A model generated the notes under the pieces. The model saw only the letters and a program-made list of their open reading frames with translations. It did not search any database and was not told where the DNA came from. A stretch of 64,000 nt of DNA. Origin: Cloeon dipterum (lineage: Eukaryota; Arthropoda; Insecta; Ephemeroptera; Baetidae). Below, one piece after another: positions 11,176-53,126 of this stretch (positions within the stretch are counted from its first letter, which is position 1; each line of letters starts with the position of its first letter). Location: assembly GCF_949628265.1 (NCBI RefSeq), contig NC_088790.1, positions 13,024,545 to 13,088,544 on the forward strand, read 5' to 3'. The position numbers were made by a program, and so were the translations under genes.

Positions 11176-14100
11176 ATGAGAGGTAGCGCAGTGAAATTGT
11201 TCTTAACGTGACGATCAGTATGACACCCTCTTTATCTACAGGCCTCAAGGTGGTGTTCTTGTGTGTCCTGCTGGTGACAGCAGTTTCCTGCCAGGGTGGA
11301 GGCGGTGGCGGAGGAGGTAGTGGAGGAGGTGGCGGTGGAGGTGGTGGAGGCGGCGGAGGTGGAGGCGGTAACTACATAGATTTATTTACACTCTCAAAAT
11401 TATATATTTTCAAAGATAATTTCTTCAAATTAAATTATTATTAGAACGAAAAGATTTGATTTATTAATTTGCAGGCGGCGGTGGGGGAGGCGGAGGCGGC
11501 GGAGGCGGTGGCGGTGGAGGAGGTGAGTAAAATATTTTAGATTGAAAATGGTAAAAATATTGCCTGAAATGATTGATAGCGAATTATTTGAGTACAAATA
11601 CAAACTTTTTGCTTTATTAGTTTGAATTTGCAAGTGTGAGGAATTGTAATATTGCGAAACATTAGTTTAATATCAAAAATGCTATTTTCAAGATGTAGCA
11701 CGTTAAACTATATAAAATAGAAATCTTTGGAAAGTTAAATTAATATGCTCTGGGATAAACAGGAGGCGGTGGAGGAGGTGGAGGCGGCGGCGGCGGAGGA
11801 GGTGGAGGCGGCGGCGGAGGTAATTTATATAAATGCATAATAGTTTATATAAATTACATATTAAATGATAATCTACTCCACCTTCAATTGACCTTGAACA
11901 TTTTGATGTGATTAGATTTGAGCTTATCCCTGAATCCAATTTCCAGGTGGTGGAGAAGTAACGGATCCTCCGTGCAACTGCGTTACAACAACCACTCCTG
12001 CACCGTAAGACTTGCTTTGTTGAGATATTAACGAACAAAAATTCGGCTAAAAAAATCGCAAACAATAAATTACAGTTGCCTCACGACGACAGTTTGCCCG
12101 ACAACTGCCCCTCCTTGTCCAACACCTACTACAACTACACCAACAACCACAACAACTAGGTATCCAAAGAGACACGTGAAACGAAACCATGAGTCAATAG
12201 TCACAATTATACATTTATAGGACAGAAAAAACATTGTAATTCGTCACTGCTAGCAATAGTTTTGAAACTACTTGCCTATTAATAACAAAAGATATACTCT
12301 TACTGACAAATAATCAAGCCCTTCCTTTCAGAACTACAACCACCACTACGCCGACAACTACTACCACCAGGTATACATGCGGTCAAAAAAAAAACATAAT
12401 TTAATCAAGGCTTTTTTTCGGTGCTCTAATCATATCTTTCACTTAAATTAAAATCAAATTAAAAATATAATATTTTATACATTTTTTTGTTTACTCATGA
12501 TGTACAAGAGGTAGAACACATAACATCTTAAAAGTTTTTAATGATACTATTCACACCAGAGCAAATTTTTGGTTCGATTTAAAAACACATTTCAAGTAAA
12601 ATACTCTCACAAACATTGAGTTTGAAATCTTAAATAATTTCCAACATTTACCTACTTGTTAAATTTTCTTCAAAACTTTACAAAATTTTCAACTGCACAA
12701 ATTTCCAAAATAACTTCCTTAATTTCAGAACAACAACAACGCCAACAACAACTACAACAACACCAACAACTACCACAACTCGTACGACAACTACCACGAG
12801 AACAACTACCACTACCACTACACCTACAACAACTACAACTAGGTAGATTTTCAACGCATGTGAAGGCGACGAGCATGATTGAAATTCATGATATAATTTG
12901 TCGCCTTCAAATACACACATATAACTACACTTTTCACACTCAATCACTCTAATTACACATTTCTACAGTGCAACAACTAAATCCACATTACCAAATTATT
13001 ATTATTATGGATTAATTTTTACTCTATGAGACTCTCAGATTCTCTTTTTCTTACCCAAGTTTGAAACAAACTGAGGGAGAAAAATGTTTCTGTCTCGAGA
13101 GCCATTTACAAAACAACTGCAAGCACTACCACAACGCCGTAAATAGTTTAAATCAACTCAGATGAAAACATAAATCACAAAAACATTGCTTAATGTTGCT
13201 AAATTTCAAAATATTTTCCTGTCTAAAAAGTTTCATATTGACAAAATTACATAAAAATTACTGCTACTACAATTCCAAACTATGCATGTCCAATATATCT
13301 GAACTTGCAAAATTACAAATTTACGGCATTTTTTCCTAATTTGTTTGAAAAAAAATTTTAATTGGACAAAGCACACACTAATAACACAATCCACGAACAC
13401 TTTGACAGAACAACTACAACACCAACTACAACAACTACAACGCCGACCACAACAACTACAACCCCAACCACAACAACCACTCCAACCACAACCACAACCA
13501 CCCCAACCACAACCACCCCAACCACAACTACCACCCCAACCACAACTACCACCCCAACCACAACTACCACCCCAACCACAACGACTACCACAGCCACAAC
13601 TACCACCCCAACCACAACCACCCCAACCACAACTACTACCACAACCACAACTACCACCCCAACCACAACCACCACCCCAACCACAACAACTACACCAACA
13701 ACAACCACTACACCGTAGGTTTCCTTTTATACATCACGAAGACAGGTTAAGATTCATAACTTCACGAGAAAGTTTCTTGATTTTTCTTTCTCTATTGCCA
13801 AACAATTATTATTATGGTACAAAATCGAGGGGGATATATTCAGAGAGATTTTATTTTTCTCTTAAACATTACCTATATTAAATGTTTAACAAACACATTT
13901 TACACCTCTATAAAAAGCTCGACAACGTACGTCATTACAAATATATTATTTGTATATGGCAGTATCTTAAAATTATTTGGGGACGTTTAGAAAAATTGGC
14001 TGCTTCCATCATCGTGATTTATTTATTTTTTCCTTTTTTGTTGATGATGTAGTCATGCAGACAATTTCAATTTAACATTAAGACTGTAAAATACACTTAT

Positions 14101-15477
14101 TCAAAAACTATTTTACAGAACAACCACTACCACAACCCCGACCACAACAACCACAACACCAACCACAACAACCACAACACCGTAAATATTTTAAAACTAT
14201 TTTTGTTTAATAATTGCGAAATACACATGATTCAAAAATGCTCTATCGAGCGTCAAAGTGACTAAATTATTAAAATCTTGCACAAAACCAACAGTGCAGG
14301 TATCAAAACTAAAATTTCTACACTTCTAGGACGACAACAACAACAACTCCAACCACGACGACAACAACTCCTACCACGACAACCACAACACCGTAAATAC
14401 ATTACCATTACACATACAAACACATATTTTAAACCAACAAAAAAAAGGTTTCAAATTAATCCGAATTCAGGGATCAAGTTTGCGTCGGTGGAACCTTTAT
14501 TATTAGCACATGATGACCTTAACTTTAATACAATATTTTTTTTTAGGTTTGTATGAGGAGCAATTTAAGGTTACATCATGGCTTAAATCAGTACTTTTTT
14601 ATATTACGTTTTCACACTTTAGTCAAAAATTATATTTAGAGATCTGAAAATTAGCCGTAAATCAACGCGAAATGTCTATCAACTAGACTTTGAACAAATG
14701 ATTAGGAGGACTTTGAACCAGTGCACACCTGATATCTTATGATAAAATCAAATCGGTTCTAGAGAAGAATTCAATCTATTTTGCCATCACGAGGGAAACA
14801 TGTTTTCAAATTTATACCATCAAAGAGCAAAATTTCCGACATCTTGTAAAATTCCCTTGATTTGAAGAGTTTGAAAATACGCTAACTTCCTAATCTGATC
14901 TACCTCATCTTGAAATTTAGCTATTTAAATGTTCTAATTGGCCTCTAGTAGTGAGCTATCTTGCATATTAATTTTTATCATTAATTCTGCATGGAAACTC
15001 AATTTTTTAGGCTATTTAAATTTATAAGTACCATTATTTGGACACATTTAAAAAAGAGATAAATAACATGAGGTTTGGAGAGGACTGCGAATGCTTGCAA
15101 ATAATTAAACAAATTGTCTTCTATAGACAAAATAAAAATATTAAATAATCGATTTTTACAACAGGACTACCACAACTACCACACCGACAACGACCACCCC
15201 GACAACAACGACCGAGGGTGACCCACCGACCGATCCTGATCCATTCTGCCCAAGGATGGTCCTTGAGAAGTGCGGCCAGGCCGAGACGGTGACCTACTTC
15301 AACAAGTTGTTGCTGCCCTATCCAGGTGACTGCTCGCGCTTCTGCCGCTGTGTGTCCCAGATGGCGACGCAACACGCGTGTCCCAAGGGTCTGCACTTCA
15401 ACGCCGACATCCAGGCGTGCGACCTGCCCAACCTGGCCAGGTGCTCCGCGACAGGCACCATGTCCAGGTACCAGTGA
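11176..15477 (+). CDS. Secreted chitin-binding protein with poly-Gly and Thr/Pro exons and a C-terminal CBM14 domain
   Basis: There are twelve coding exons: 11176-11182, 11242-11367, 11475-11522, 11763-11819, 11947-12004, 12076-12159, 12332-12370, 12729-12842, 13409-13714, 14119-14181, 14330-14392 and 15165-15477, giving 425 residues. The protein starts with a signal peptide (MRGLKVVFLCVLLVTAVSC), followed by about 75 Gly with one Ser (exons 2-5). A linker EVTDPPCNC leads into a long Thr/Pro region (exons 5-12), a mucin-like stretch likely to be O-glycosylated. The last 80 or so residues are a CBM14 domain (YPGDCSRFCRC, then GLHFNADIQACDLP). The Gly introns are phase 1 and the Thr introns phase 2, so middle exons are frame-neutral. 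Unlike its paralogues it lacks the second Cys of the CPxC motif and the C-terminal Cys, and it has CDLP in place of CDWP. It is likely an extracellular chitin-anchored structural protein. The poly(A) signal is at 15585. Confidence 0.88.
12969..13138 (+). pseudogene. Two decayed Thr-type exons inside an intron of the preceding gene
   Basis: At 13112-13138 there is a 27-nt frame-neutral Thr exon followed by an intact gtaaat donor. The base before it is A (position 13111) where the sister exons have the G of the AG acceptor. At 12969-12992 a second Thr-like stretch follows an intact ttctacag acceptor, but the expected donor after ...TTACC is replaced by aaatta. Both sit between the used exons 12729-12842 and 13409-13714 and look like dead copies of the repeated exon. 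Confidence 0.5.
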
Positions 15478-16126: not shown

Positions 16127-17521
16127 ATGCAGGGTACAACAGGTAATATTATACCGACGGTGTGATGATTTCCTACTCATTTTTAACAGATTTCATCAGA
16201 TAAGAATATCGGTTGCACTTCAATTGACGAGCACATATAAGTGTTTAAGTTGTTCAGATTTTAATTAGGTTGTTTTTAAGGTCAGAAAAATGTTAAGTGG
16301 GGCGCAATATGAATTTTTGTTTGTGGTGGGGATTCCAGGAAATGCACTCAGCGTTTGAATGACTTTATTTCACAATTTTCAATAATCACCAGACTAGATC
16401 TCTATATTAAAAAGATTCTATTTTAGGCAAGCCTGAGCGATTATCAAAAATTGTCAGTGAAACAATAGACATGACATGCATAATATGACAAAGATTGTAA
16501 GATAAACAGGTTTTTAATGACATTTATTAGAAGTGACAAAATAGTCATCAAGGGGAATAAATATTGGGTTTCTTTCTGATTGTGAATAAGAGGGATTAAA
16601 AAAACCACTGGTCTTTTAGACCAAATTACGTATTTTTATCGATTGGGAATCCCTTAAAACATTATATCATTTAAAACTTAATAAAATGATAAAAAAATCG
16701 CATTTTTTGGTTAAATTTTTTGCACTTCTTTGCTATTCAATTGATCTTTCATTACAGCTTAAAATTGCATGATTCAATCATGCTAAATAGATAAATATCT
16801 CATAGATTGGAAAGCTATCAGAAATATACTGAGTTCGGTAGACTAAATTTGATGACCTACTTTACTTTAAATAAAGTAATATATATACCCAATGCCATTT
16901 TTGTTCCACTTTTGATTGACTTCTTACAGGTGTTTATTTATTTTTAATAATGATCGTTATCAGATCCTGTAATGGAATTAGACGGAAATTTTGGAAATTG
17001 ATAAGTGCGCAAATCCGTTTTCTTTTCAGATACGATTGATGGTTGTTTCCTTTTAGCTCGAAATGCGCTCTTCCAATCTTCGAAGAGCTCGTAAAAAGGG
17101 ATAAATCATGATGGCAATTTTATAAATTGCAGGATGCTGGATTTTGATGTTTTTACTACCGGTAATGATTTCGCCAATTGCTGAAAACTACGCTGGGGGA
17201 GGCGGCGGAGGCGGGGGTGGTGGAGGCGTAGGTGGAGGTGGTGGCGGCGGTGGCGGATGGGGTTAGTCGTAAATTTGTTCATTGAAATTACTCTAAATAT
17301 GCGCACATTTCTTACGTCTTTTATTGCCGCTGCCATTATTTCGAATTCCAGGTGGAGCTAGCACCTACCACAATCAATACCATCCCCAACAGCAGCCGAA
17401 CGCGAACGAGACTCCAAAAAGCAGTCTAGATTCTACTCTTAACAACTTTGTTGATATAGTAAAATATATTTTTGAAACTATTGTTAAATACGTGGTGAAA
17501 CAATTATTTGCAGGGATCTGA
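16127..17521 (+). CDS. Small secreted Gly-rich protein with an amphipathic C-terminal helix, no CBM14
   Basis: The family is not recognised. The best model has exons 16127-16142, 17133-17261 and 17352-17521, giving 104 residues. Exons 2 and 3 are well supported: acceptor aaattgcag, donor gttagt, acceptor attccag, phase-1 junctions and stop TGA at 17519. Exon 2 encodes a hydrophobic secretory signal (WILMFLLPVMISPIA), then ENYA and about 20 Gly with one Val, ending in Trp-Gly. Exon 3 encodes a polar His/Gln/Asn segment, then about 30 residues (from LDSTLNNFV to KQLFAGI) whose hydrophobic residues recur every 3-4 positions, as in an amphipathic helix. The first exon (ATGCAGGGTACAACAG) is inferred only from phase and a gtaata donor. 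A phase-1 intron before the signal and the Gly exon link it to the neighbours. An antimicrobial or membrane-active role is possible but unproven. The poly(A) signal is at 17547. Confidence 0.55.
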
Positions 17522-17546
17522 AGTTAAAAATGAGGTTCCTTTACCA

Positions 17547-18815: not shown

Positions 18816-20730
18816 ATGAGAGGTACTGATCATTATTTTTATCTTGCCATCTTTAAAGGAATTACGATTCCACCCCCATTTATATCATTTTGATCTGCTT
18901 ATTCCATATCTGGTTAACGTAGGTATGGTCAGAAAAATCAGCATATATCAATAGTATTTTTGATAGCCTTAACTTTTAATAATTATATTGACAATATAGT
19001 GATATAAAATTTACCATGTTTGAACAACATAGTTACACACATCAATTAGCTTTCAAATTTAATGCTATAAATGTGATTGCGGAAGTACAGATGAAAATAT
19101 GTTTATATTGAGTTTCGGTTTTTAATTGCATCTAAGTTCCAAACTAAAAATTGAGCAAAATTGCAGAAGATAAATAGTGATTTTTTCAGCAAAAAAAAAT
19201 GCTGCAGTTTTTACAGATTTTCTATGTGTATAAAAAATAGATCGATCTTCATATAGATAAATATAATTTTAGCTCGGATGTTATTTACATTGGCTAGACA
19301 ATAATAGACTGAACCCAATTTTTGTTCCAGCTTACAGGCTAGCAGTAGTTGCCCTGCTTTGCGTTGCAGTTGCCACTGGTGTCAGTGGAAAGGCAGCGAT
19401 GCTCAAAAGCGGAGGAGGAGGAGGCGGTAAATGCAAAGCAGCATAATGTAGTGCAATGTTACATTTGATTGTTTTAATAGGAGGAGGCGGAGGAGGAGGA
19501 GGCGGAGGTGGAGGCGGCGGCGGTGGAGGCGGAGGAGGTAAAGATTGATACTTGTCAAATGCATCATAAACTTGTGTGATCAATGCAAAAAAAATTTCCT
19601 TGAGATAAGTGCGAAGTCTATTGATTAAATTACAGCATATCTTTTTAAAATAAATGTCAGAAACAAAAAAAAATGTGGCTGGATTAATGACTAATTTGAA
19701 ACATTATCAACAATAGATATTTTGCAATTAAGTAAATTAATGAAATATATTAAATTGATTTTTCTTACTGATTTAATAAATCTATTCTTAAGGTGGTGGA
19801 GGCGGCGGCGGAGGCGGTGGAGGCGGCGGCGGAGGTGGCGGAGGCGGAGCAGTTGGTAAGTTACATGTTGTGAAAATCATTTATGGTGAATCTAGCAAAA
19901 TTTTAATGTTGCAAGATAACGAGCAACAATTAAAGGCCATTTTGCTACAATATTTAAATTTTGAGAAACGTGTTTATTTTAATTTGGTTAAATATGAATT
20001 AAAATTGATTTCAGATCCCCCACCACCAACATCTTGCCCAACAACAACACCACCATGCACTCCAACAACCACCCAATGCACCAAACCACCAACCTCTTGC
20101 ACCACAACACCCCCTTGCACCACAACCACCACCACTTGTACACCAAAACCCACTTGCACCACCACCACTTGTACACCAAAACCCACTTGCACCACCACCA
20201 CCACTTGTACACCAAAACCCACTTGCACCACACCAACCCCCACTTGCACCACACCGAAACCCACTTGCAGCACAACAACCCCCACTTGCACACCGAAACC
20301 CACTTGCACCACAACATCCCCTTGCACCACGAAACCCACTTGCACCACAACATCCCCTTGCACCACACCAACCCGCACTTGCACCACCACCCGATGCACC
20401 CCGAAACCAACCTCTTGCACCCCGCCAAGACCAACTTGCACCACCACCCGATGCACCCCGAAACCCACTTGCACGACGAAGCCGCCATGCCCGCCGGAAA
20501 AGTGCCCTGAATGCGTCAACTACAACTGCACACCAGGCGATTGTGACTGGGGTAGAAATTTGCCCCACCCTGGTGACTGCAGCAAGTTCTGCAAGTGTGA
20601 CGTCACGGGAGCCATAGCATTCAAGTGTCCGGCAGGACTTCACTTCAACGCCGCGCTTGAAGTTTGCGACTGGCCGAGCAACTCCTGCTGCACCTATTCC
20701 AGCACCTTCGTCGGAAGATGTTCCGCATAG
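18816..20730 (+). CDS. Secreted CBM14 protein with poly-Gly exons and a Cys-rich Thr/Pro repeat domain
   Basis: Five coding exons (18816-18822, 19331-19426, 19481-19537, 19793-19855, 20015-20730) give 312 residues. The signal peptide is MRAYRLAVVALLCVAVATG, followed by a short KAAMLKS segment and then about 43 Gly in three phase-1 exons. The large last exon encodes about 160 residues of Thr/Pro repeats (units such as TCTPKP and CTTTT) in which a Cys occurs every few residues, unlike the Cys-free Thr regions of the neighbours. It ends in a CBM14 domain (CPECVNYNC, HPGDCSKFCKC, GLHFNAALEVCDWP, GRC). The regular Cys could cross-link the mucin-like part by disulfides; that is inference. It is likely secreted and chitin-bound. 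Long open frames on the minus strand here only reflect the repeat. The poly(A) signal is at 20745. Confidence 0.9.
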
Positions 20731-23449: not shown

Positions 23450-24769
23450 ATGAAAGGTTTGTTACTAAAAACATTTTTGACGTTTCATTGATATGACTTT
23501 ATGTACTAGTATATTTTTCCTAAATTTTTATCAAAGTGTTTTAAACTATATGGGCAGTCGTTTGCAAAAAATCATATATCATATACATAAAATTACTTTT
23601 GTTCCAAAACTAAACAGGTAGATTGTAAGTGAACTGTAACTGCACTTAGGTCAAATGTTCAACAAGATCACTTTGGTTGTTCTGATCGCAGGATTAAAAT
23701 TTATATCTAATGGATCAGAGTTTATTTAATTATAAATTATTTTCGATTCTATAAGTGAATTATATCAAACATTTTGCAGCCCTCAGGCTCGCAGCAGTGG
23801 CCTTACTCTGCGTCGCTACCGTCAGCATCAATGCTGCGAAGTTGCCAATGAAAATAGGTAGACATGGGGGTAACGAATGAAACCAAAAGGTTTTTTGTGG
23901 TATTCATATTACTCCCTTTCAGGTGACCTAATCACAACTCCTTGCCCGACGCCGACGCCGCAAAAAATGAGGTCAGGTGTCAAAATTACAACTCCTTGCA
24001 CGCCTCCAGCTCCGCAAAGGAGGAGGTCAGATGACCAAATCACAAACACTCCCATGAGGCCGACACCAACACCGCAAGAAATTAGGTCAGGAAACAAAAT
24101 TTCAACTCCTTGTACACCACCAGTTCCACACAAAAAGGTGTCAGGAGACCAAATCACAACTCCTTGCCCGACGCCGACGCCACAGAAAACGATGCCAAAA
24201 GCTGAAGTTTTAGGCGGTTCTTCGGGTAAGACATTTTTTTCTCGAAAAAAAAGAAAATGTTAAGTCTTTTAACTCAATCTTTCAGATAATGATGTAACAA
24301 TCCCTTATCCAACAACAACACGAACACCTTCTTCAAACGCTAAAATTTCTTCTAGAGGTAAAAATAGTCCCTATGAAATTTTACATCTCCACAAATGGTG
24401 AAAGGGGGACTCTCATTGAGATATTAGCCTAACTGGTAGTGATAATAACCGTTAAAATTATAATAGATTTATATTTTCAATTTAGAACCACTTCCGGTTA
24501 AAATAAATTGGATTTTTTTTTGAAAAATTGGGAAAACACCAAATCCCTACAGCTAATGAAACTGGCCTTAATTTTTTCCCTTTACTATGTGACTAACAAA
24601 CATAAAGGATATCCAAATAAACAAGCCCTTTTTTCAAGGTGGAGGCGGAGGTGGAGGAGGCGGAGGAGGTGGCGGCGGCGGTGGTTTGTAGTCTGTTATT
24701 GATAAATGTACTTAATAAAAAAGGTTCACAGGTGGTGGTGGTGGTGGAGGTGGAGGCGGTGGGAGGTGA
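23450..24769 (+). CDS. CBM14-family paralogue that has lost its chitin-binding exon; Pro/Thr repeat plus poly-Gly tail
   Basis: Exons 23450-23456, 23780-23857, 23923-24225, 24286-24357, 24639-24683 and 24732-24769 give 180 residues. The signal peptide (MKALRLAAVALLCVATVS) is nearly identical to those of the next four family members. Exon 3 carries five diverged repeats of 18-20 residues around ITTPCPTPTPQK, exon 4 is Thr/Ser-rich, and exons 5-6 are poly-Gly. The last Gly exon runs into GGGAGGTGA and stops at 24767-24769. In the paralogues at 25689 and 31596 the matching bases GAG|GTGATT are the donor that leads to the CBM14 exon. Here the donor motif is one base out of phase and no CBM14 sequence follows before the next promoter. 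The gene may make a short secreted protein or be decaying. The donor after exon 5 (gtttgt) is weak. The poly(A) signal is at 24862. Confidence 0.62.
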
Positions 24770-25688: not shown

Positions 25689-26426
25689 ATGAAAGGTTTG
25701 AGATATCAATTCTTTGCTACAAGATTTGGCCTAGTTCGATCTAATTTCTTTCAATTCAATTGATCAAATTGCTTCATTATGTCTGCAAATAGGTATTTTT
25801 AAACTTAAATTTGTTAAGAAACTTGCAGATTTGAATGCGTAGTTACGCACGGATTAAGTTTTCATTAAAAATTTAAAAAGCTGAAGTTTAGAAAATTATG
25901 TGACTGTATAATTACATTGATCTTTTCACTGGATTACTCATTGATTGATAACATTATACAACAAATTTTATTGATTTTTGTATAGTGAAAAAGTTAATTG
26001 AAAGAAATTTGCTGTTCACAGCCTTTAGGCTCGCAGCAGTGGCCTTGCTCTGCGTCGCTATTGTTAGCATCAACGCTGAAAAGGTTACGGAGGAGATAAG
26101 AGGAGGTGGAGGTAAGATATATTAAAAGAGGATCAAATTTTGAGCTAAAGAATGGTCATTCCTTGGCCAACCTCACTAAAAATTTAACTGAAAATCCCTT
26201 AATCTATGAAGCAACAAACAAAAATTATTTTTGAATAATCAAAATATCATTGCTTTCAAGGAGGAGGTGGTGGCGGCGGTGGCGGCGGTGGTAAGTTACT
26301 TTGTCATTGAGCGAACTTAGATATTTAAAGATACATATTTATAGGTGGTGGCGGTGGAGGTGGTCAGTCACGATGAAACATTTTTATACCTTGGTTATTT
26401 AAAAAAAATATATATATATATTTACA

Positions 26427-26464
<38 letters not shown>

Positions 26465-26994
26465 AGGAGGAGGAGGAGGAGGAGGTGGTGGTGGAGGAGG
26501 AGGTGGCGGTGGAGGCAGAGGTGATTTTGTCCATTTCGTTTTCAGATAATTATAGTAGTAAAAATAGATACGACGATAAAATACTTAACAATTTAATCTA
26601 AATTAATCACAATTAAAAAAATAAGTCAAGTGCGAAAATAATGAACATAAGTACAAATGAATGAATTTAACTTATCGTTTCGATATTATTCCCAGCCGAC
26701 TCCCAAGTCAACCCCCTTTGTGACCCGATCTGCGAGCCCACACCACCACCTTGCCCCCCAAAGCTCTGCCCTGACTGTGTGAACTGCGCATGCACCCCCC
26801 ACGACTGCGACCGTGCTAGGCTTCTGTACTACCCCGGAGACTGCACCAAATTCTGCATGTGCGACCACTTAGGCGCCAAGGAGTTTGACTGTCCGGCTGG
26901 TCTGCATTTCAACGCAGCACTCGAGGTCTGCGACTGGCCACACTCGGCCAATTGCTGCATTCCCAACACCTACATTGGCACCTGCACAATGTAA
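25689..26994 (+). CDS. Secreted poly-Gly CBM14 chitin-binding protein
   Basis: Exons 25689-25695, 26022-26111, 26261-26290, 26345-26362, 26428-26520 and 26696-26994 give 178 residues. The layout is signal peptide (MKAFRLAAVALLCVAIVS), a short acidic EKVTEEI segment, about 50 Gly from four exons interrupted near the end by one Arg, a Pro-rich linker (DPICEPTPPPCPPK), then CBM14. The domain reads CPDCVNCAC, YPGDCTKFCMC, GLHFNAALEVCDWP and GTC. Exon 4 encodes only six Gly and uses a gtcagt donor, so it could be skipped without a frame change. All internal introns are phase 1. The domain is almost identical to that of the next gene (28227), so the two are a recent tandem pair. The protein is likely chitin-anchored and extracellular. 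The poly(A) signal is at 27038. Confidence 0.88.
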
Positions 26995-27043: not shown

Positions 27044-28077
27044 GTTATGTAGAACTTCATGTCATTTCTAACGAAAAGTTTTATTAAATAAAATTGAACA
27101 AAAATGAATACGATGAAATTTGATTCTAAAGGAAGATATGGGAAAAGGAAAAAAAATGATTTGCATGATTGCCACGTGGCGAGTATGATTTCTCTTTCAA
27201 CAAATGAATCGAAAAAAATACAAAAAGAGTAGAAATGACGCAACTAATGCATGAAAAACCACGTCAGAATAATACACATATTGCACGCACATAACCAATA
27301 ATAAATGCACCCAGTTTAGCTGAATTGTTGTCTTACAGTTAGACAGTGTTTTTTTTTTTAATTTGAAGCAACAAAATTCTATAATACTACCATTTTACCA
27401 TTCCATTTTTCGTAACAAAAATAAAGATTTTGAGACATTTTAAGTCAGTTTCTTTTCCTTTTCTATATGTTTGTGTCAAATGAGAACGCAAAATCGAGTT
27501 GAAAATTAAATCATCATGCATTTGACCTTGGATTGGAAGCTGATCTCAATCAGTCATCATTGCACGGCATATATCAATTGAATTCGGCTGTCTAAACGAC
27601 TGAGATATCACCTCTGGGATACAAAAACGATGACTGAAATGATAGACTTTTCTTAATTCAGTTTGATGGACCTAAGATAATGGGATGACACACATCTCCT
27701 GGAAGCCATTGATTTTGAGAAATTTATCGACTATTTTTTGCCATTTCAAGTCTGCTTAAATGTTTTTCTTTCCAGTTTATGGAGATGAAATACTAAACAG
27801 TTTCAAGGACGCTTGTCATTTCGAGATTTGAATGATCTGACAAAGAGAGTTCTAGTAGGGGTGATTATTACTTGCGATAATTTTGCACCTCAAATCAATC
27901 GGAGCGAGTGACACATATGCAAAAAACTCCTTAATTGTTGACATTGAATGAGTAGCTATTAATCTTTGGAACCCATCTCAACCTTAATACGGGTATTCAA
28001 TCTCAAAAGAATATGTCAATCATTACGATAATTTAAATTTTATCTAGTTGGATTGGCAATACAAATAATAATTCGGA
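27044..28077. other. Intergenic; part of the tandem duplication unit
   Basis: No gene is seen. The stretch around 27510-27560 (CATTTGACCTTGGATTGGA, then GATCTCAATC) is similar to 30175-30210, downstream of the next gene. This shows that non-coding DNA was duplicated along with the genes. Confidence 0.5.
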
Positions 28078-28143
28078 CAGCCAATAACAATCAATTGAAT
28101 TGGTTTTACACAGATTGAGATAAGAGTAATTTGGTATATAAAA
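28078..28143 (+). promoter_or_regulatory. Shared promoter block with GATA site and TATA box
   Basis: AGCCAATAACAATCAATTGA begins the block, with AGATAAG at 28118-28124 and TATATAAAA at 28135-28143. The TATA box ends 83 bases before the ATG. Confidence 0.72.
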
Positions 28144-28226
28144 GAGGCGAAAAAGGACAAGTGCACTCATAGGTTTTTTGTTGGTGGATATTGTCAGACC
28201 AACTTGCGCATAGGACGTCTTTCAAA

Positions 28227-30008
28227 ATGAAAGGTATTTGTGCTCGTTTCTTTCCAACTAGCAGTTTTATCTGCGTACTATTGTTTCATTTTACAGATTT
28301 TGAGTTGCATTGAAATTATTGATAATTTGCTTCAGGTCGTTGGCATCAAATGTCTCACAATTTTAAAATGGGAATTGTGATTTAGCTTTGAAAGGGGTCT
28401 GAAGCAGTTATGCTTTTCACAAGCAACAAAAATTTTGCTTCTCACAAAATACTCTAAATTTTTAAAGATATAATGCATTAATTAAACTTATCGATTTTTC
28501 GTTATATGAGCTTGCTAAATGAAAGAAATTTGACCATTTGCAGCCTTCAGGCTCGCGGCAGTGGCCTTGCTCTGCGTCGCAATCGTCAGCATCAATGCGG
28601 AAAAGGTGACAGAGGAAATTAAAGGAGGCGGAGGTAAGGAATCATTATATATGGATTGTCCCTTTTCCAATGAGTAAATTAAAAATTTTCTCCGTGCATC
28701 TTTCTTCTACCCAAATTTGTAGCTACGATATAATTTCTGATTAGCTTTTGCAGTCTCTTTAATTAGATTCTTTATCAAAATTCGATTGAAAGATTTCAAT
28801 CAGTTCCACTGCTATATCAATTTTAATTATTCATCTAGAATTTATTTTTGAACGGGATTATTTCACGTCAATTTTGAACTCCAGGAGGAGGCGGCGGCGG
28901 TGGTGGTGGCGGAGGAGGAGGAGGAGGAGGTGGTGGTGGAGGAGGTGGAGGCGGCGGCGGAGGTACGATATTTTGAAAAATTAGCAGTTTCAAATATCAA
29001 AGTAAAATTTTGAGCTTTAACTCTTTAAAAATTAGTCAGAGAAAACGTCAAAAATAAACGGTAAAACTAAGATTTAAGGCAGTTTGAGTAAACCGAAATA
29101 TCGTTCACTGTTGCCAAAAGTGGTGACAAAAATTAAATTTAATCTGATATTAGTTTGTCGTTGAAGTCAAGGGGCATAAACTTTATTACGAACTATTCAA
29201 GGACAGAAAAAGGATAAAGAAGAAAATTGGCAAACACCACATCCCTCTCAAGTGGAAAAATAGAAGGTTATAATCTATAGTTATCATTGATTTTAAGGAG
29301 GCGGAGGCGGAGGCGGAGGTGGAGGTGGAGGCGGAGGTGGAGGTGGAGGTGGAGGCGGCGGCGGCGGTGGCGGTGGTGGTAAGATCTTCCTAAGTTTGCA
29401 TACCTTTTGCTCTTTACTCATTTCACTATCAAATTTACAGGTGGCGGCGGAGGCGGAGGCGGAGGCGGTGGTGGCGGCGGCGGCGGTGGCGGTGGCGGTG
29501 GCGGTGGAGGCGGCGGAGGAGGTGGCGGTGGAGGTGGAGGCGGAGGTAATTTTGTTAATTCCTTATATCCAACTTAATATCAAAGTGCTAATTTTGCGCA
29601 TCAAATATCATTTGGGTGAAAAAATGGCCCACTACGAGTCCAAAATTTCTGGAAATCGAATGAGTTGAGCTTATGAGACCAATTTGATCCACAGTCGATC
29701 CCCCGCCCCCGGTCGATCCAACCTGCGAACCCACTCCCCCACCATGCACCCCAACTCCCCCACCTTGCCCCCCGAAACTCTGCCCTGACTGCGTGAACTG
29801 CGCGTGCACCCCCAACGACTGCAACCATGCCGTGCTCCTGCCTTACCCCGGCGACTGCACCAAATTCTGCATGTGCGACCACTTGGGCGCTAAGGAGTTT
29901 GACTGCCCTGCTGGTCTGCATTTCAACGCAGCAATTCAGGTCTGCGACTGGCCGCACTCGGCCAATTGCTGCATTCCTAACACCTATGTTGGCACCTGTA
30001 CTCCTTGA
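28227..30008 (+). CDS. Secreted poly-Gly CBM14 chitin-binding protein (about 91 consecutive Gly)
   Basis: Exons 28227-28233, 28544-28633, 28885-28962, 29298-29378, 29441-29545 and 29695-30008 give 224 residues. After the signal peptide (MKAFRLAAVALLCVAIVS) and EKVTEEIK, exons 2-5 encode an unbroken run of about 91 Gly using mixed GGA, GGC and GGT codons. A Pro/Val/Asp linker (VDPPPPVDPTCEPTPPPC) leads to the CBM14 domain with CPDCVNCAC, YPGDCTKFCMC, GLHFNAAIQVCDWP and GTC. Internal introns are all phase 1. Its closest relative is the gene just upstream (25689). The mixed codons argue that poly-Gly is kept at the protein level and is not simply a slipped triplet repeat. It is likely an extracellular structural protein that binds chitin at one end. 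Poly(A) signals are at 30033 and 30057. Confidence 0.9.
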
Positions 30009-30328: not shown

Positions 30329-30504
30329 ATGAATGGTAAGTTGTTTTTGTTATACATTACTTAACGAGGACCATTATATTTACAAATTTTAAACGATAAA
30401 TCCATAGTGTTTAACTAATAAACCAATATTTTTACAGCCCTAATTTGAACAGCTGTTGCCATTGGCAAGATCAAATCTGAGAGACGGTGATGGAGGTTAT
30501 GGAG
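30329..30504 (+). pseudogene. Relic of a cluster gene: start exon plus broken signal-peptide exon
   Basis: ATGAATG followed by gtaagt at 30329-30335 matches the 7-nt start exon of the gene at 33713. The next exon-like piece, 30438-30504, has a good acceptor (tttttacag) and donor (gtagga) and aligns with the signal-peptide exon (CCCTAATTTGAACAGCTGTT against CCCTCAGGCTCGCAGCAGTG). It contains an in-frame TGA at the third full codon and is one base out of phase. No Gly or CBM14 exons follow before 31400. Confidence 0.6.
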
Positions 30505-33712: not shown

Positions 33713-36700
33713 ATGAATGGTAATAGTTCTTTTCTTATATGTCTTTAAAATTCTCTAGAACCCTAGAAAAATACTGTTTATATATTTCTGAATAATTGAA
33801 ACACACTTATTTATTGATTTGCAGCCCTCAGGCTCGCAGCAGTCGCCTTACTCTGCGTCGCCATCGTCAGTGTCAATGCTGAAAAGGTGACAGTGGAAGG
33901 AGGCGGTGGAGGAGGTAAGAGAATCGACTCTGAATTTTTACTTTTTTAAATCGATATTAAAAGTGTGTAAGTCTATTAAATGTTTTTTTATTTTTCTAAT
34001 TTTTTTTGGGGTATTTAAATAAAACATTTTCAGGTGGAGGAGGTGGTGGCGGCGGCGGAGGAGGAGGTATGATTTTGATTCATTTTTTTATTCTTCCTCT
34101 AGAAGTCACACATTTTAGAAATGCTACACGAGCTCAAGATAAAGGAAATGTCCACCCCATGAATTGTTTTTAGCCCTTAACTAGAGCCAATTCTACCAAA
34201 ATTTTAATGACATATTTCAAAACAGTTGAAAAACTGTATTCAAAAATGTTTCGAGTATTCACCATTATAGCACACATTTAATTATTAATAATGCAGTGTA
34301 TATTATTTTAAATTAAAGTCAAGAAGAGTGCTGCAGATACTCTTTTAATACATTCATTGGACAAAAATATGAAAAGCAATGTCTTGTTCAGACAATTTGA
34401 AAATTAAAAATAAATCTTGCATTAATCTCACCATACATGCGATTAGTTGAAAGCTTTTGGTAAAGCAAGGTGACTACCAATAAGTGATAATATAACGCAA
34501 CCGTGCTCAAAATCTCTTTAAATTTTAGATCAATATAATTCTAACAGTAGTTTCACTTAAACTGAACTTGAATTTAAAGGTGGAGGAGGTGGTGGCGGTG
34601 GAGGAGGAGGTGGTGGCGGCGGTGGAGGTAAGTTTTTGTTTCAAGTTTGTTTCGATTGGAAAATTAGACAGTAAATTAAAACGAACATTTCATTCTAATA
34701 AAATTATTTGCAATGATTATTGATTGAGAGAATATCAAGGTTGAAAAGATTGTAAAATAATAGACTTAAATACTGACTAGTAAAAATATGTTTGAAATGC
34801 AGCTGATTGTTTCCTATATTTTGTGTCTCTTAACAAATTTAACGAATCTCTTAACATAATATTATTTATTGTATATTAGTTTGATGCAATTACAAAAATA
34901 AAAAAGGTAAATACAGAAAATGTATTTTAGGCGGAGGAGGTGGAGGAGGAGGAGCAGGTGCTGGAGGTGGTGGCGGTGGAGGTAAGAGTTTGTGAATTTT
35001 TTTAAAATGAAATGGTGGATTTTAGGTAGTCAGTGACCACACTATCTTCAAGTGATACTTACGCCGTACTATCCAGATACTATAAATATTTTAAATAAAT
35101 CTATGGATTGAAATCCACCACTCTATTATGCTTTCAAACATTTTTTAACAAACTGTTTTTAAAATATGTGTATCTAAGGTGGAGGAGGTGGTGGTGGTGG
35201 AGCAGGAGGTGGAGGTAAGCAAACTCTTTCTGCTGATATTTTGAAATTATTTTGGGCATGCATTTGAGTAATTTTTATAAATTTAAGACAGACAATGTAT
35301 TTATATTTATTGGAAGCCCATAAAAGCAAGTACATTCAATGGTGTCATACTGTTCAGTTTAAATTAAACACGAGCTGTTTTAATTTCTACAATAATTTTC
35401 TGCTTAACTAGATAAACAGCTCGCTATACACCGAGGAAACTGCATTTAATCTCAACTGAAACAATTTAATTATTTTCTAGGATTATACTTCTTCTAAATA
35501 AAAAAAAGAATTAAATTTGAAGGTGGTGGAGGCGGAGGAGGAGGCGGTGGAGGAGGAGGTGGAGGAGGAGGTGGAGGCGGCGGAGGTAAGATTAACAATT
35601 TTTCAAGGCTAGGAAAATTTATTGAAATTTGCATTGGAATGGCAATGACCTTATGCTTTACTTTGAAAGGACAACATATATTGTCCCGTAAATTACGTAA
35701 TTCATCGTAAGCACAAAACAATAAAATATTAATAATTCGCAGGTTTTAAACAAAACTTTAAACTTTAAGTTAGTTAATTTTGCCACGCTTCCTAGCATAA
35801 TTAATCAATTTAGATTTTTTAAGTTTAGTTTTTAATTAATGCATGTACTTAATTTCTAGGAGGAGGAGGAGGAGGAGGAGCAGGAGGGGGTGGTGGAGGT
35901 ATTTAAGCAACAATTTTCAGCATAAAGTTAAATTCAAAATTAAATTTATCTTGATTAGTATTATTTGTCATATAAAAATAATGATAATAATCATGTTCTA
36001 TCTCAATATTGAATCAACTTGCTTCAGTGTAAGAAAAACATTTAAAAAAAACTCCTTTAAATCTTAATGCTTTTAATAAATATATCCTTCTCTGATTACT
36101 GTCGCCAAGTTGTCAATATAGTGAGACTTGCGAAAGCAACACACTTGATCTAATGATATGTTTTCCCTATATAAAAAGCAATTAGCCACTCTGTATGACC
36201 TTGGATTTGTTACGGGTGTCGCGTGCATTGTCCCATAATTATCAGTCTGAAATTTAAACTCTAATATAGAGAGAAAATATTGAAATAATAATTGTTAAAA
36301 CTTCTAGGTGGTGGAGGAGGTGGTGGAGGTAATACTGGAGGTGAGAATGATTTACTTTTAACGAGCTCTGACAAAAATCTGTTTTAATTTTTTCCAAATT
36401 TGACCCTAAGAGATATAAATATACACATTAAATAACTAACACAATTTTAGGTGCAGGCGGAGGAGGTGGTGGAAGTGGAAATGGAGGCGGAGGAGGTGGC
36501 GGGGGTGGCGGAGGTGGGTCTGGAAACGGCGGCGGCGGCGTCGGCGGTGGTGGTGGTGGAGGAAGTGGAAACGGAAGCGGTGGAGGCGGTGGGGGTGGTG
36601 GAGGCGGGTCTGGAAACGGCGGAGGGGGTGGCGGAGGCGGTGGGGGCGGCGGATCTGGAACCGGAAGTGGAGGCGGCGGAGGAGGTGGGGGTGGAGGAAG

Positions 36701-37766
36701 TGGAAACGGAGGAGGTGGGGGTGGAGGAAGTGGAAACGGAGGTGGTGGGGGCGGAGGCGGTGGGGGCGGCGGATCTGGAACCGGAAGTGGAGGCGGCGGA
36801 GGAGGTGGGGGTGGAGGAAGTGGAAACGGAGGTGGCGGTGGCGGAGGTGGTGGGGGCGGTGGATCTGGAACCGGAAGTGGAGGCGGCGGAGGAGGTGGGG
36901 GTGGAGGAAGTGGAAACGGAGGTGGTGGGAGCGGAGGCGGTGGGGGAGGTGGTTCAGGAAATGGAGGTGGTGGAGGAGGAGGCGGCGGCGGTGGCGGCTC
37001 TGGAAGTGGTGGAGGAGGTGGTGGCGGGGGTGGAGGTGGAGGAATTGGAAACGGAGGCGGTGGAGGTGGCGGTGGAGGCGGCGGTGGCTCTGGAAATGGC
37101 GGAGGGGGTGGTGGCGGAGGCGGCGGTGGAGGAAGTGGAAACGGAGGTGGTGGAGGCGGAGGCGGTGGGGGTGGTGGCTCCGGAAACGGTGGAGGGGGCG
37201 GTGGAGGTGGAGGGGGCGGCGGAAGTGGAATTGGAAATGGAGGCGGTGGAGGCGGCGGTGGTAGTGGGAACGGTGGTGGCGGCGGCGCAGGCGGAGGTGG
37301 CGGAGGTAGTGGAGGCGGAGGCGGAGGTGGTGGCGGAATAGGAGGTAATTGAAAATTTATGTGGAACGAATGTTCTCATTATTCTAAGACCCTAATTTAA
37401 ATCTTAAATGTGATTAAAATGTTAAACCCCTAATGATATGGAAAATATTTTATTTGACTTTCAATTCCAGTCGACCCTGGCATTCCCACGGTCAAACCAC
37501 CCAGCCCAACTAACCCACCTTCGGACACCTGCCCTGATTGTGTGAAATCAGCGTGCTACCCTGATCCCCTCGGTGTGCACCTCCCCTTCCCTGGCGACTG
37601 CACAAAGTTCTGCCAATGCGATAACGACAGAGTCGTTGCATTTAACTGCCCATCTGGACTGCACTTCAACGCTGTATTAGAAGTGTGCGACTGGCCACAA
37701 AATGCTCGATGCACCGTGTCAAACACTTATGTTGGCTCCTGCTCAGCACCCATGATTGTTCGATAA
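33713..37766 (+). CDS. Large secreted Gly/Ser/Asn-rich CBM14 protein
   Basis: Eleven coding exons (33713-33719, 33825-33914, 34034-34066, 34580-34627, 34931-34981, 35179-35214, 35523-35585, 35860-35898, 36308-36340, 36451-37344, 37471-37766) give 529 residues, the largest of the cluster. The signal peptide is MNALRLAAVALLCVAIVS. Exons 3-9 encode short Gly runs with occasional Ala, Asn or Thr. Exon 10 is an 894-nt exon of about 298 Gly/Ser/Asn residues with units such as GGGGSGNGGG and GSGTGSGGG; a 90-nt higher-order unit recurs from 36651. The last exon has a Pro/Thr/Ser linker and a CBM14 domain with CPDCVKSAC, FPGDCTKFCQC, GLHFNAVLEVCDWP and GSC. All introns are phase 1. Ser and Asn every 8-12 residues give a silk- or adhesive-like pattern, though the role is not known. 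The poly(A) signal is at 37809. Confidence 0.88.
36651..36925 (+). repeat. Higher-order tandem repeat inside the giant Gly/Ser/Asn exon
   Basis: A unit starting GGATCTGGAACCGGAAGTGG recurs at 36651, 36771 and 36861, each time followed by the same run of about 60 nt. The spacings are 120 and 90 nt, so all units are multiples of three and frame-neutral. They look like recent unequal duplications. Confidence 0.75.

Positions 37767-38002: not shown

Positions 38003-38077
<75 letters not shown>
38003..38077. repeat. (TG)n microsatellite
   Basis: An uninterrupted TG dinucleotide repeat of about 75 bases lies in non-coding DNA. Confidence 0.97.
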
Positions 38078-41498: not shown

Positions 41499-42526
41499 AT
41501 GCGAGGTGAGTAGATTAACTGTGGAAGAAAATCACATTGGGCCTCGGGGATAATTAAAGGGGAAGCTTCGCCGGTAACTTTCTGAAAATCGGCAAGCACG
41601 TCTTAAGCGGGAGCTGAATTCTCAAAGGACCAAAATAGTTAGCTTCGTTTTACATCTAATCCGCGGGACAGTGGAGGGACGAAAATCCACTTTTCCAAAA
41701 CTTGACACGGCGAAGAAAATTGTCAGAGGAAAGCTGGTGTTGATCATCATCAAATTTCAATTTAACACTTTTCGATGGCTAAATTTTGAACGTAAAAAAA
41801 TTTGAAGCAAATTATATTTCAGTTGCCATTGTTGGGTTCATCCTTTTCGTTGGGATTGCCAGCGGTCAATACAGACACCCTGGTCAGGGTCGCGATTTCA
41901 CGTTGACGACGCCGCAATGCCCTCCTTGTGACTGCGCCACCACAACCACCACAACCACCACGACCACACGCCGCCCGACCACCACGCGCACAACCACACG
42001 TCCAACCACCACGCGTACAACAACCACGCGTCCAACCACTACGACTACACCAACAACCACAATTGGTGATGAGCCACCTACACCACCCTGCGCTACTCCC
42101 CCAACTAGTCCTCCAAGGTTAGTTTACGCTTCCTGCTATTTTTCTCTTTCACAGCAAATCAAGTTTTTCTTACATTAAAACTAATTTAAATTAAAATTTT
42201 CACTTATTAATATTTTCTGAAAACATTATATTTCACATTTTGTAATTCTCAACCTGGTAGCTAAAATTCCCTATTGTTGCTCCAGGTACTGCCCGGATTG
42301 CGTGATGGCAAAGTGCACACCTAATGCGTGCAACCAGGGCGTGCAGGTGCCTTACCCGGGTGATTGTACCAAATTCTGCAAGTGCGAGCTTGACGGAGCT
42401 AAGGAATTCCTTTGCCCTGGAGGACTTGAATTCAACGAGGGATTGCAGGTGTGCGACTGGCCCAGCACTGCTGGATGCACCATTCCAGGCACTTACCTCG
42501 GTGGCTGCGAGGGCCTGGCGCCTTAA
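41499..42526 (+). CDS. Secreted Thr-rich (mucin-like) CBM14 chitin-binding protein
   Basis: Exons 41499-41505, 41823-42117 and 42286-42526 give 180 residues. The signal peptide is MRVAIVGFILFVGIASG, then QYRHPGQGRDFTLTTPQC, a CPPCDC Cys cluster, about 40 residues of Thr/Arg/Pro repeats (TTTRPTTTRTTT), a Pro/Thr linker, and CBM14 in the last exon (CPDCVMAKC, YPGDCTKFCKC, GLEFNEGLQVCDWP, GGC). Intron 1 is phase 1 and intron 2 is phase 2, the same phases that flank the Thr exons of the gene at 11176. There is no Gly tract. The gene at 44101 is its close sister (shared VAI.. signal and LTTP.CPPC.C). It is likely O-glycosylated and chitin-bound outside the cell. The poly(A) signal is at 42598. Confidence 0.9.
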
Positions 42527-44100: not shown

Positions 44101-45314
44101 ATGAAAGGTAATTAAGTGTTTGTCAACTTGCTTATGGGCCCTGCAAATCCACTTCTCTAATGCTCCCCGTCCGGCAAAATCTCAAAAGTTTTGGGCCAGA
44201 TTTTGAAGGTATTAATAAGAATGGAGTATTTCTGATAGTTTGCATTTTTGTGACGGAAATCTTTTAGAATAGAATAGAATATTTATTAAACGCCAACGGC
44301 GTACAACTATTTCCAGCATTTATTTGAGGCAGCTTTGGTTAAAGTCAAAGGTTTTAAAGGACAATCAAGAATGTGGTACATACTATACAGATCAGCATTA
44401 CAATAACTACATTTACATTTGTCGGTAACATCCAGGTGAAAACAAGAATTTGTGCAAATAAGAAAATGATACCCATGAAATGAATATCTGGTTAACATGG
44501 AACGATCCTTACAATTCGTTTTCTTCCAATCGGTATTTAACATTGCGGGAGTATAATAGAATTTTGGATCAATATTTTGCTTTTTAATATTCATATTACT
44601 TACAAACTTGACAAAAGCTTCGGAACAATTGAGAGCGACGGAAATCTTTTATAATCCCTTTTAATGTTAATCTTGTCAGAGAGTATTATGAATTGAATTT
44701 TACTATTTCAGTTGCCATTTTGAGTTTCGCTTTCCTGGTGGTGGCCGTCAGCGGCTACTCCATGTTTGATGACAAGTCCATCACATTGACAACCCCTGCT
44801 TGTCCTCCATGCGAATGTATCACCACAACCTCGACTACCACTACTACGACCACATCCACGACGACTACCCCGAGACCGACGATCAAGCCTGACGAGTAAG
44901 TTTTAAGTACGAGTAAAATTTGGTTGAATTAAAAATTGCAAACTTTTCAAATTGAAGTGTAATATTTAAACTTCTAAGTTCCATAAATTCCTTGCAATTT
45001 TTCATCAGGTGTGAATCTCTAAACTATTTTCAGTAAAGTAATACCACTTTTTTGCTTGGTTTAGCTACTGCCACTCGTGCGTCAGCAGCAGGTGCAACCC
45101 AGAAGGCGGCATCGACTACTCAATTCAGCTATCCTATCCAGGCGATTGCTCCAGGTTCTGCAAATGCGACAAGCCAAACTCGGCCATAGCTTTTAACTGC
45201 CCAGGAGGTCTGCACTTCAACCGTGAACTGCAGCTGTGCGACTGGCCCACTGCATCCAAGTGCTCTGTCCAGAGCACTTACGAGGGTGGATGCGAATCCT
45301 TGATCATCCCTTGA
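44101..45314 (+). CDS. Secreted short Thr-rich CBM14 chitin-binding protein
   Basis: Exons 44101-44107, 44712-44895 and 45065-45314 give 146 residues, the smallest intact CBM14 protein here. The signal peptide is MKVAILSFAFLVVAVSG, then YSMFDDKSITLTTPAC, a CPPCEC cluster, about 25 Thr/Ser residues, a short Pro/Lys linker (RPTIKPDE), and CBM14: CHSCVSSRC, YPGDCSRFCKC, GLHFNRELQLCDWP and GGC. The introns are phase 1 and phase 2, as in the sister gene at 41499. Intron 1 is 604 nt because a truncated retrotransposon has landed in it (44267-44636); without the insert and the duplicated target it would be about 219 nt. The poly(A) signal is at 45363. Confidence 0.9.
44252..44651 (-). mobile_element. 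5'-truncated non-LTR retrotransposon in intron 1, with 15-bp target-site duplication
   Basis: The 370-bp insert (44267-44636) is bounded by perfect direct copies of GACGGAAATCTTTTA at 44252-44266 and 44637-44651. Read on the minus strand, it encodes the tail of a LINE-type ORF2: an Arg/Tyr-Gly-His-like region, then a Cys/His cluster of the form C-x-C-x2-C...H-x4-C followed by Pro (44307-44594). It then ends in a short AT-rich 3' part with AATAAA and an ATTCTATTCTATTC tail. Truncation at the 5' end, a 3' repeat tail and a target duplication are the marks of target-primed reverse transcription. The clade (Jockey, CR1, I or other) cannot be fixed from this piece. Confidence 0.85.
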
Positions 45315-48610: not shown

Positions 48611-48951
48611 CTGACCGCTTTTATTAATATTACACAGGCTCACATTTCGTTTTATGGTACCTGTATTTTCGGTCGGATTTACGTTCCAATGTGGCAATAA
48701 TTAGTCGGATTTAGCGTCAATTATAGCCCTATATTCACGCCATCCCTTGCAATGGTCTGTTTAGCTAATTAGCTGGTATAGGTCGCTTCAAGCAATATTG
48801 ACGAATTGAAATGTGTCGGCTAGTTATAAATTCACCAAGTGTTTTACTGAGACTGCAAATTGGCCTGCAGTTGGTACGCTCGAGCTACGCAACTTGCAAT
48901 TCCATCTCATTTAGTAGGTCACACAGGAGCAGATTTTCAAAGCACAAACAG

Positions 48952-48953
<2 letters not shown>

Positions 48954-49010
<57 letters not shown>
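48954..49010. repeat. (CA)n microsatellite
   Basis: An uninterrupted AC/CA dinucleotide repeat of about 57 bases. Confidence 0.97.
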
Positions 49011-49013
<3 letters not shown>

Positions 49014-49179
49014 TATTTGCCCATGAAGCGCAGTTAGTGCTTCTTTAATGAAGGAGTGCAAATATGGTAGGATGGCTAGCAGAACACATAGAAGTGCATT
49101 TACTGCTTTTCATGGCAAGTTGCTTTTCAAGGCTGGTAACAAGGAGCGAGTTAGAACCACAAACAGATCTCAAAACCAC

Positions 49180-51049: not shown

Positions 51050-51056
51050 TATATAG
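51050..51056 (+). promoter_or_regulatory. Possible TATA box of the outlying CBM14 gene
   Basis: TATATAG lies 119 bases before the ATG. The context (AGAAGCTATATAGAG) resembles the GAAGCTATAAAAGG of the first cluster gene. Confidence 0.45.
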
Positions 51057-51175
51057 AGAACCCGATTCACCTTAGCGCTGACAGTCCGCCGCAGACCCGT
51101 TGAAAAGTTTAAGCTGCACCAGGTGCGCTGTAATTACTAAGCATCGCCGGCCTGCTAATTACCTCGGAGGTGGCC

Positions 51176-53126
51176 ATGAAAAGTAAGTCGCTCATCGTGG
51201 ATATTTATTTAAATCTCGTAGCTGCTGGCCTAGCGAAGCGGCCGGTGAAATTACTTCTTCTTAGTTAATTAATATTGCAAAACTTCATAAGATTTCACTC
51301 AAAGAGATGACGCAAGTTCCCCTTCGCAAATTTTGCCAGCAAAAATACAGAAGTTGATGGTGAGCAGGCAGATTCCCGGTTTATTTCATTTCAAAAGTGT
51401 GTGTGTATATAGGGTATATTATATAGTAGCCTTGCCAATTCACATTGCACAAATTAATTCGTCTTTTGCGTAAGCATCAGAAACTGCACAGCCTCAACAA
51501 GTTTCAGACACTCATAAACTGCGTTCTAAGTTCAAAGCTGACTCACTCACAAAGTTGCTTGTGCAATCCGTGAATGAATACTCATGAGTCATGCTAGAAG
51601 TCTTAAAACGAGTGTATTTATAAATGAAAATTCACCAAAACTCTTTAGGCTTGTCCATTTATTTTTATTTCATTCAGTGTTAGAAACATTTTACTTTTGT
51701 TTTTTCCATGGCCTAATATTTCCAATAAAAAGCAGAATTGTTCTAGACAAGATAGATACTTAAAATAAAATGTTTGTTAAATTTCTTGAAAATTACCAGA
51801 AAAGTGTAGATCAAAAGCTTAGAGTGGAGAAAATATATTCTGACCAGAATAATAATATATAATATTTTATCCCTTTCCTGTACATGAAAATGCCTCGTTT
51901 AGACTGACAATTTGGTGACCCAAAGGTTAACGTCATCAGGTAGCGAGCACTGCAACAAAAGTTTGTAAATAACTTTTTGAATGTCACCAAATTCTAAAAT
52001 TGTAGGGTTATGTAATTTTGATAAATATTAAAATAAATTATTGCAGAACAGGGGAATCGTTTAACAGTATTATTGTCGTTTTCCATCCTTTTGTCAAACC
52101 CTGATTGTAAGGAGTAGTTGCAAAACTGTTAATTAAAATCCATACTATATTGAAACTTCGAAAAAGAGTTCTGATTTTTAAATATTCCATTCGTTTTCAG
52201 AACTCATTCTGTGCACCGTCTTCCTCGCGTTGGCAGTCTCAGCGCACGCGTGGTCCTGGTCCTGGCTTCTGCCGTGGAGCGCCAACGATCAGGACGCAGG
52301 ACCATGGGACGGTTACGGAGGAGGTGGCGGCGGATTCCGGCCTAACACCACGACCGCTGATCCAGGTCCGACGACCACGGACGCAGCAACAACAACAGAG
52401 GAAGCAACAACTACTGAAGAAGCAACAACCACGGAGGAAGCAACGACAACCGAGGAGGCAACAACCACGGAGGAAGCAACGACAACCGAAGAGGCAACAA
52501 CCACGGAGGAAGCAACGACAACCGAGGAGGCAACAACCACGGAAGAGGTGACAACCACGGACTACCCAACTGAAAGTCCGACAACCACCGAGGACCCATG
52601 GGGTACCACCACAAGCGAATGGTCCACGACGCCTGCTGAAGAAACCACAACTGAATTCTGGCCCAGCTGTCCGACGCAAGAGCCCTGTCCGACGTGCGAG
52701 CCTGCCACCTGTCCCCCGCTGGTGTGTCCGACCCCTCCGCCGTGCGAGTGCTCCTCCACTTCCAACCTTTGGACGTCAACGACGGAGCTGAACTCGAGTC
52801 CAGTGAGCCCGTCCTCGGCGACCGAGGAATCTCCAGGCACCACCACCACCTCTTTACCCCAGGGCGGGGAACTGCGGTACTGTGACCCCTGCGTGATGGC
52901 CAGGTGTCCGCAGAGTCCGTGGACCACCAACGTGTACGCCCCTGGCTCGTGCGGACAGTACTGCAAGTGCCAACCCGACAAGGCCATCCTGTACGAATGT
53001 CCCACTGGACTCCATTTCAACGGCGTGCTTGAAGTGTGCGACTGGCCAGCAAGGGCCAAGTGCACCTTGGAACTCACCTACCGCGATGGCTGCGAGCATA
53101 TGATGTCCGGACGCATAGCAATTTAA
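51176..53126 (+). CDS. Secreted Thr/Glu-repeat CBM14 chitin-binding protein (outlying family member)
   Basis: Two coding exons, 51176-51182 (ATGAAAA, then gtaagt) and 52201-53126, give 310 residues. The signal peptide is MKKLILCTVFLALAVSAHA. It is followed by a Trp-rich WSWSWLLPW segment, a short Gly patch, and nine TTTEEA repeats (about 52387-52551) that make the region both acidic and Thr-rich. Next come a Thr/Ser/Pro region, a Cys-rich segment (CPTCEPATC, CPTPPPCEC), a Ser/Thr linker and the CBM14 domain (CDPCVMARC, APGSCGQYCKC, GLHFNGVLEVCDWP, DGC). The 7-nt start exon, the phase-1 intron and the ten-Cys CBM14 tie it to the cluster, but the rest is diverged and GC-richer. Several long frames on the other strand and in other frames are shadows of the repeat. 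The poly(A) signal is at 53154, or 53125 overlapping the stop. Confidence 0.92.

Follow-up and report, generated by a model that had tools for sequence, protein, structure and literature searches.

A tandem array of genes for single-CBM14 proteins with polyglycine or threonine-rich arms in an insect genome

The gene array and its common structure

The stretch of DNA analyzed here, a window of 64,000 nucleotides (nt) on contig C5 of a 190.1-Mb assembly, contains nine intact genes on the plus strand between positions 11176 and 53126. The predicted proteins begin with a signal-like sequence, continue with an arm of low complexity, and end in a single CBM14 domain (Table 1). An earlier note on this stretch had proposed nine intact CBM14 genes on the same strand, with one C-terminal domain per gene, and both statements held. 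All nine last exons scored above the PF01607 cut-off of 22.1 bits, with 37.7 to 53.8 bits (44.1 bits for g1), and the genome-wide PF01607 search of the assembly likewise yielded nine matches in the window. The number of one CBM14 domain per gene refers to the last exons, which were the exons scanned. Eight genes were modeled with a splice-and-codon dynamic program that required the signal and CBM14 exons and favored glycine codons; the other three models were made by hand, as indicated in Table 1. Within g1, the product of which contains 210 threonine residues in total, the 15-nt exon at 13124-13138 is weakly modeled.

The first coding exon comprised 7 nt and ended in phase 1 in all nine CBM14 genes and in the CBM14-less g4. 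A common start exon and phase, as suggested earlier, thus exists as a structure but not as an identical sequence, with ATGAGAG, ATGAAAG, ATGAATG, ATGCGAG, and ATGAAAA being used. All of these ten genes possessed a TATA[A/T]A motif 83 to 128 bp upstream of the ATG when 180 bp were scanned, which compares with 23% of random 180-bp stretches of the window and with 6% for the stretch from −128 to −83. An AATAAA was located not more than 150 nt from the stop codon, again in 10 of 10 genes, compared to a background of 22%. The promoter and 5′ untranslated region of g6 formed a block that was also present, with varying completeness, in g4, g5, and g7, and with its 3′ part in g8. A 26-nt motif from this untranslated region had three matches in the genome with up to three mismatches, at g6, g7, and g8, all of them in the array, and the reversed control had none. 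AGATAAG occurred within 300 bp upstream of 5 of the 10 genes, in g4 to g7 at aligned positions (−106 to −115) and in g9 at −281, with 14 such sites in the whole window. The aligned sites of g4 to g7 arose by recent copying and cannot serve as independent evidence, and a GATA (gut) promoter signal was rejected for this reason.

Table 1. Features of the array and of its doubtful members (aa, amino acids)
Feature	Position	Strand	Exons	Protein (aa)	Characteristics	CBM14 position
g1	11176..15477	+	13	430	Signal; polyglycine arm with a 53-Gly run, then a long Thr/Pro arm	15313-15444
Gly-rich gene	16127..17521	+			Signal-like start, no CBM14; hand model
g3	18816..20730	+	5	312	43-Gly run, Cys/Thr/Pro arm (TTTCTPKPTC repeats)	20557-20691
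g4	23450..24769	+		180	Intact frame; signal, TTPCPTPTPQ-type repeats, 26 Gly, no CBM14; hand model
g5	25689..26994	+	6	178	49-Gly run	26818-26955
g6 promoter and 5′ untranslated block	28060..28226	+			CCAATAACAATCAATTGAATTGG, GAGATAAGAG, TATAAAAG, TTGTTGGTGGATATTGTCAGACCAAC
g6	28227..30008	+	6	224	91-Gly run	29829-29969
Possible relic	30329..30450	+			Start-exon look-alike, then exon with early in-frame stop
g7	31596..33273	+	7	232	98-Gly run	33103-33234
g8	33713..37766	+	11	529	354 Gly	37569-37712
g9	41499..42526	+	3	180	Thr-rich arm	42335-42478
g10	44101..45314	+	3	146	Short Thr-rich arm	45132-45263
g11	51176..53126	+	2	310	ATTTEE repeats (Thr/Glu arm); hand model	52929-53063

Composition of the glycine and threonine arms

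The arms consist of glycine in g5, g6, g7, and g8, of glycine followed by threonine and proline in g1 and g3, and are threonine-rich in g9, g10, and g11. The arm of g8 is built mostly from GSGNGGGG-type repeats in an exon of 894 nt, in which tandem repeats were detected. Those of g3, g5, g6, and g7 are pure, with glycine at 276 of 276 positions between the first and the last GGG of each arm. To our knowledge, uninterrupted runs of up to 98 glycine residues are rare in secreted proteins.

The longest runs of g3, g5, g6, and g7 together contained A at the third position 102 times, C 102 times, T 77 times, and never G. When all six glycine-arm genes were counted, codon positions 1 and 2 were 94 to 95% G, and position 3 was 37% A, 29% C, 31% T, and 3% G. 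Silent changes have been free and glycine-altering changes rare, which argues that the glycine runs are translated and under selection as protein. The possibility of a mere DNA repeat was rejected by this codon-position test. Runs of at least eight GGN codons occurred 41 times in the window, all of them on the plus strand and inside modeled exons, with 17 in g8 and 2 in the unrelated gene at 17.2 kb. Selection apparently acts on the domain as well as on the arms.

The length of all 22 internal glycine exons is divisible by three. According to the gene models, any glycine exon can be skipped in frame where all introns are in phase 1.

The CBM14 domain and its relatives in the genome

The six core cysteines are present in all nine domains of the array. 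Eight of the nine follow the peritrophin-A spacing CX13-18CX5CX9-11CX10-13CX7-8C, as given in PMC7663561, and g1 deviates with X19. The spacing attributed to peritrophic-matrix proteins in the same paper, CX11-17CX5CX9-14CX12CX6-7C, was also found in eight of the nine, again with g1 outside. The array domains contain an extra pair of cysteines, most of them a further pair. They share an 8-cysteine CBM14 subgroup with peritrophin-like open reading frames (ORFs) of six and seven domains. In a phylogenetic tree, they form one clade together with one dispersed copy, with g11 as the first branch within this clade and with weak deeper forks. The array domain represents a variant within peritrophin-A, a known family. 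Two ORFs, at C5:31.64 Mb (L038, 587 amino acids) and C3:29.67 Mb (L039, 637 amino acids), possess six and seven CBM14 domains by pattern, respectively, and several of the L038 domains pair with L039 domains in the tree.

The predicted structure of the extended g6 domain shows likeness to chitin-binding folds, including that of tachycitin (1dqc). Sequence-profile matches among solved chains were best for 8in3, followed by 1dqc and, as the third, chitin binding beak protein 3 (7bwe), so that tachycitin resembles the array domain by profile and by fold and the beak protein by profile. Their solved chains of 74 and 64 amino acids, from a horseshoe crab and a squid, respectively, are too short to include a long arm, in contrast to the array proteins. 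A MARCKS match in g11 was below the cut-off and fell on its repeats.

At least 125 CBM14 matches were found in the genome, and the genes read were a minority of these. Two adjoining ORFs, each with one CBM14 and polyglycine, lie on the minus strand around C1:12.785 Mb (locus L043, C1:12781500-12791400) and may represent one gene or two. Their domains are of the ordinary types KFYxC and KFIQC, and one ORF contains an additional threonine/serine-rich stretch. At C2:8.12 Mb, a CBM14 of the KFYHC type and polyglycine are located in one ORF, with 20 glycine residues C-terminal to the domain. Two glycine runs lie upstream of an ORF with an 8-cysteine-type CBM14, on the same strand, at C3:8.07 Mb, as read at the level of ORFs, and a CBM14 at C1:33.09 Mb is accompanied by a glycine-rich but impure arm. 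The tandem family of CBM14 genes with glycine or threonine arms claimed before was supported. A restriction of the combination to this array was rejected in view of the C1 locus, the single ORF on C2, and the upstream runs on C3. As read from the ORFs, two or more kinds of CBM14 domains in the same genome are linked to polyglycine. Eight 2-kb regions at other CBM14 matches contained glycine runs of at least eight residues in two cases and none in six. GGN runs of at least eight codons were absent from seven of eight 9.9-kb loci, two of which flanked the window and six of which surrounded other CBM14 genes; the remaining locus, L043, contained three beside CBM14.

Three further elements had been assigned to the array before. 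The gene g4, originally regarded as a truncated copy, has an intact frame with the promoter, start exon, and signal of the family, is 73% identical to g6 in the promoter and 84% in the signal exon, and ends with a stop codon at the place expected for a further splice donor. Possibly, g4 is a genuine family member that lacks CBM14. The glycine-rich gene at 16127 has a start exon of 16 nt and a signal sequence unlike that of the family; nothing in this analysis except glycine links it to the array. A relic at 30329 could not be confirmed, with no blastn match at this position when the upstream and signal regions of g6 and g8 were used as queries.

None of ten flanking ORFs matched Pfam above the cut-off. 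Long TG and CA dinucleotide repeats are located between family members at 38003-38077 and 48943-49010. An exon on the plus strand at 55256-55456 matches polyprenyl synthetase (PF00348), and nearby plus-strand ORFs, which extend to approximately 56.6 kb, resemble on visual inspection the remainder of a geranylgeranyl diphosphate synthase gene.

Five large contigs account for 187.3 of the 190.1 Mb of the assembly. At C2:29.67 Mb (L011), C-terminal exons of Orco read SCPWYNGSEEA and QRPLSVSG, compared to SCHWYDGSEEA and QKAMSISG in the solved Orco chains that were aligned. This segment differs at sites which the solved chains share, one of them from Drosophila bipectinata and the others presumably from a mosquito and a fig wasp. 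On sequence grounds, the Orco-like exons show that the genome is that of an insect. The animal may be a mayfly. Exact telomere patterns of 24 to 25 nt, TTAGG and TTATTGGG, had no match in the genome; for the mayfly Cloeon dipterum, PMC8977481 reports that a telomere motif was not found. A genome search for the odorant-binding protein family gave one weak match with stop codons, although introns may hide genes, compared to 191 such genes reported for C. dipterum in PMC7250882. Unless introns concealed these genes, this result argues against C. dipterum in particular.

Possible function of the array

The array probably encodes secreted, chitin-anchored proteins of an extracellular coat, either of the peritrophic matrix or of the cuticle. 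Tandem duplication would have led to a family in which the C-terminal CBM14 domain, with additional putative disulfides for stability, would anchor the protein to chitin. Tethering of an arm to chitin would be a natural mechanism, with the domain model resembling chitin-binding folds. The N-terminal arm would then point away from the chitin surface, either as polyglycine, a neutral chain that may self-associate or remain flexible, or as a threonine/proline chain that is probably O-glycosylated and mucin-like, and the arms would form a glycine or mucin layer. Type and length of the arm may vary from copy to copy by gain, loss, or skipping of exons in frame because the glycine exons are small, frame-neutral multiples of three. 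Two points weigh against this reading. The choice of exons in the gene models itself favored glycine, which is a caveat on the argument for selection, and the single CBM14 in each of the nine last exons speaks against the preference for the gut outlined below.

Concerning the matrix, the peritrophic matrix of the gut has a somewhat better than even chance, since the domain signature is that of the multidomain peritrophin-like ORFs and the peritrophic-matrix spacing was present in eight of nine domains. The cuticle has a considerable but smaller chance, and a glue or silk-like secretion a slight one. Proteins of the peritrophic matrix with peritrophin-A/CBM14 domains resemble the array proteins in the CBM14 score, the core cysteines, and this spacing, and also in the threonine-rich, mucin-like arms of five array genes. 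The array differs from them by its pure polyglycine arms, the extra cysteine pairs, and the single C-terminal domain behind an arm.

The array could instead code for cuticular proteins of the CPAP1 type, secreted by the epidermis with an arm that joins chitin to other cuticle proteins, which is possible but rather unlikely. CPAP1 proteins are defined by one ChtBD2 domain and are otherwise variable, with no other identifiable domain, according to PMC3504105, and the nine last exons with their single CBM14 would fit this definition, as would the variable remainder of the array proteins, a feature also of CPAP1-A to -J of Tribolium. Moreover, the glycine-rich arms recall the CPG cuticle proteins as described in PMC12426002, which are also glycine-rich with a signal-like start. 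However, the 8-cysteine signature is common to the peritrophin-like ORFs with six and seven domains, albeit with the weak deeper forks of the tree, and the Tribolium CPAP1 group comprises ten genes for which PMC3504105 does not use the word cluster. The array is a tandem arrangement with a common promoter block and glycine arms. CPG proteins contain GXGX or GGXG repeats (PMC12426002). GGX-type repeats are found in g8 with its GSGNGGGG units, but g3, g5, g6, and g7 join pure glycine runs to CBM14.

An adhesive, silk, or other secretion, in which polyglycine arms form a fiber or gel and CBM14 sticks to chitin, is improbable. Pure polyglycine and the GSGNGGGG repeats resemble repeats of fibrous proteins, polyglycine II is known from sawfly silk, and the beak protein ranks third among the solved sequences found. 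Nevertheless, runs of 43 to 98 glycine residues in proteins of maximally 529 amino acids are short for silk, and a coat is favored by the presence of threonine-arm paralogs within the array. Least likely are glycine runs as intronic G-rich microsatellites beside real proteins of a short signal plus CBM14: skipping every glycine exon would keep the frame in the genes with all introns in phase 1, and the modeling program favored glycine codons, but the third bases vary freely despite constant G at positions 1 and 2, all 41 runs lie on the coding strand, GT and AG border every exon end, and seven of the eight 9.9-kb loci contain no such run.

Within the coat reading, a further proposal is tentative at best. 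Polyglycine "brushes" might form a distinct class of chitin-anchored proteins, in which pure glycine arms associate in a polyglycine II-like manner into a protein layer, symmetric phase-1 mini-exons tune the arm length by exon gain or alternative splicing, and sister genes swap in a mucin arm for a hydrated layer. Polyglycine would then have become linked to two or more CBM14 lineages within this insect.

No insect protein with a single CBM14 and a polyglycine arm was named in the titles and openings of abstracts that a search of open-access literature returned, with most of the subscription literature outside this scope. The combination is a real, unusual, and apparently selected design inside a known domain family. 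Paralogs with the same chitin anchor but arms of different length and chemistry would make the contribution of a glycine versus a mucin arm directly testable. If the host is a mayfly, comparisons of peritrophins and cuticle proteins would also gain an early-branching lineage.
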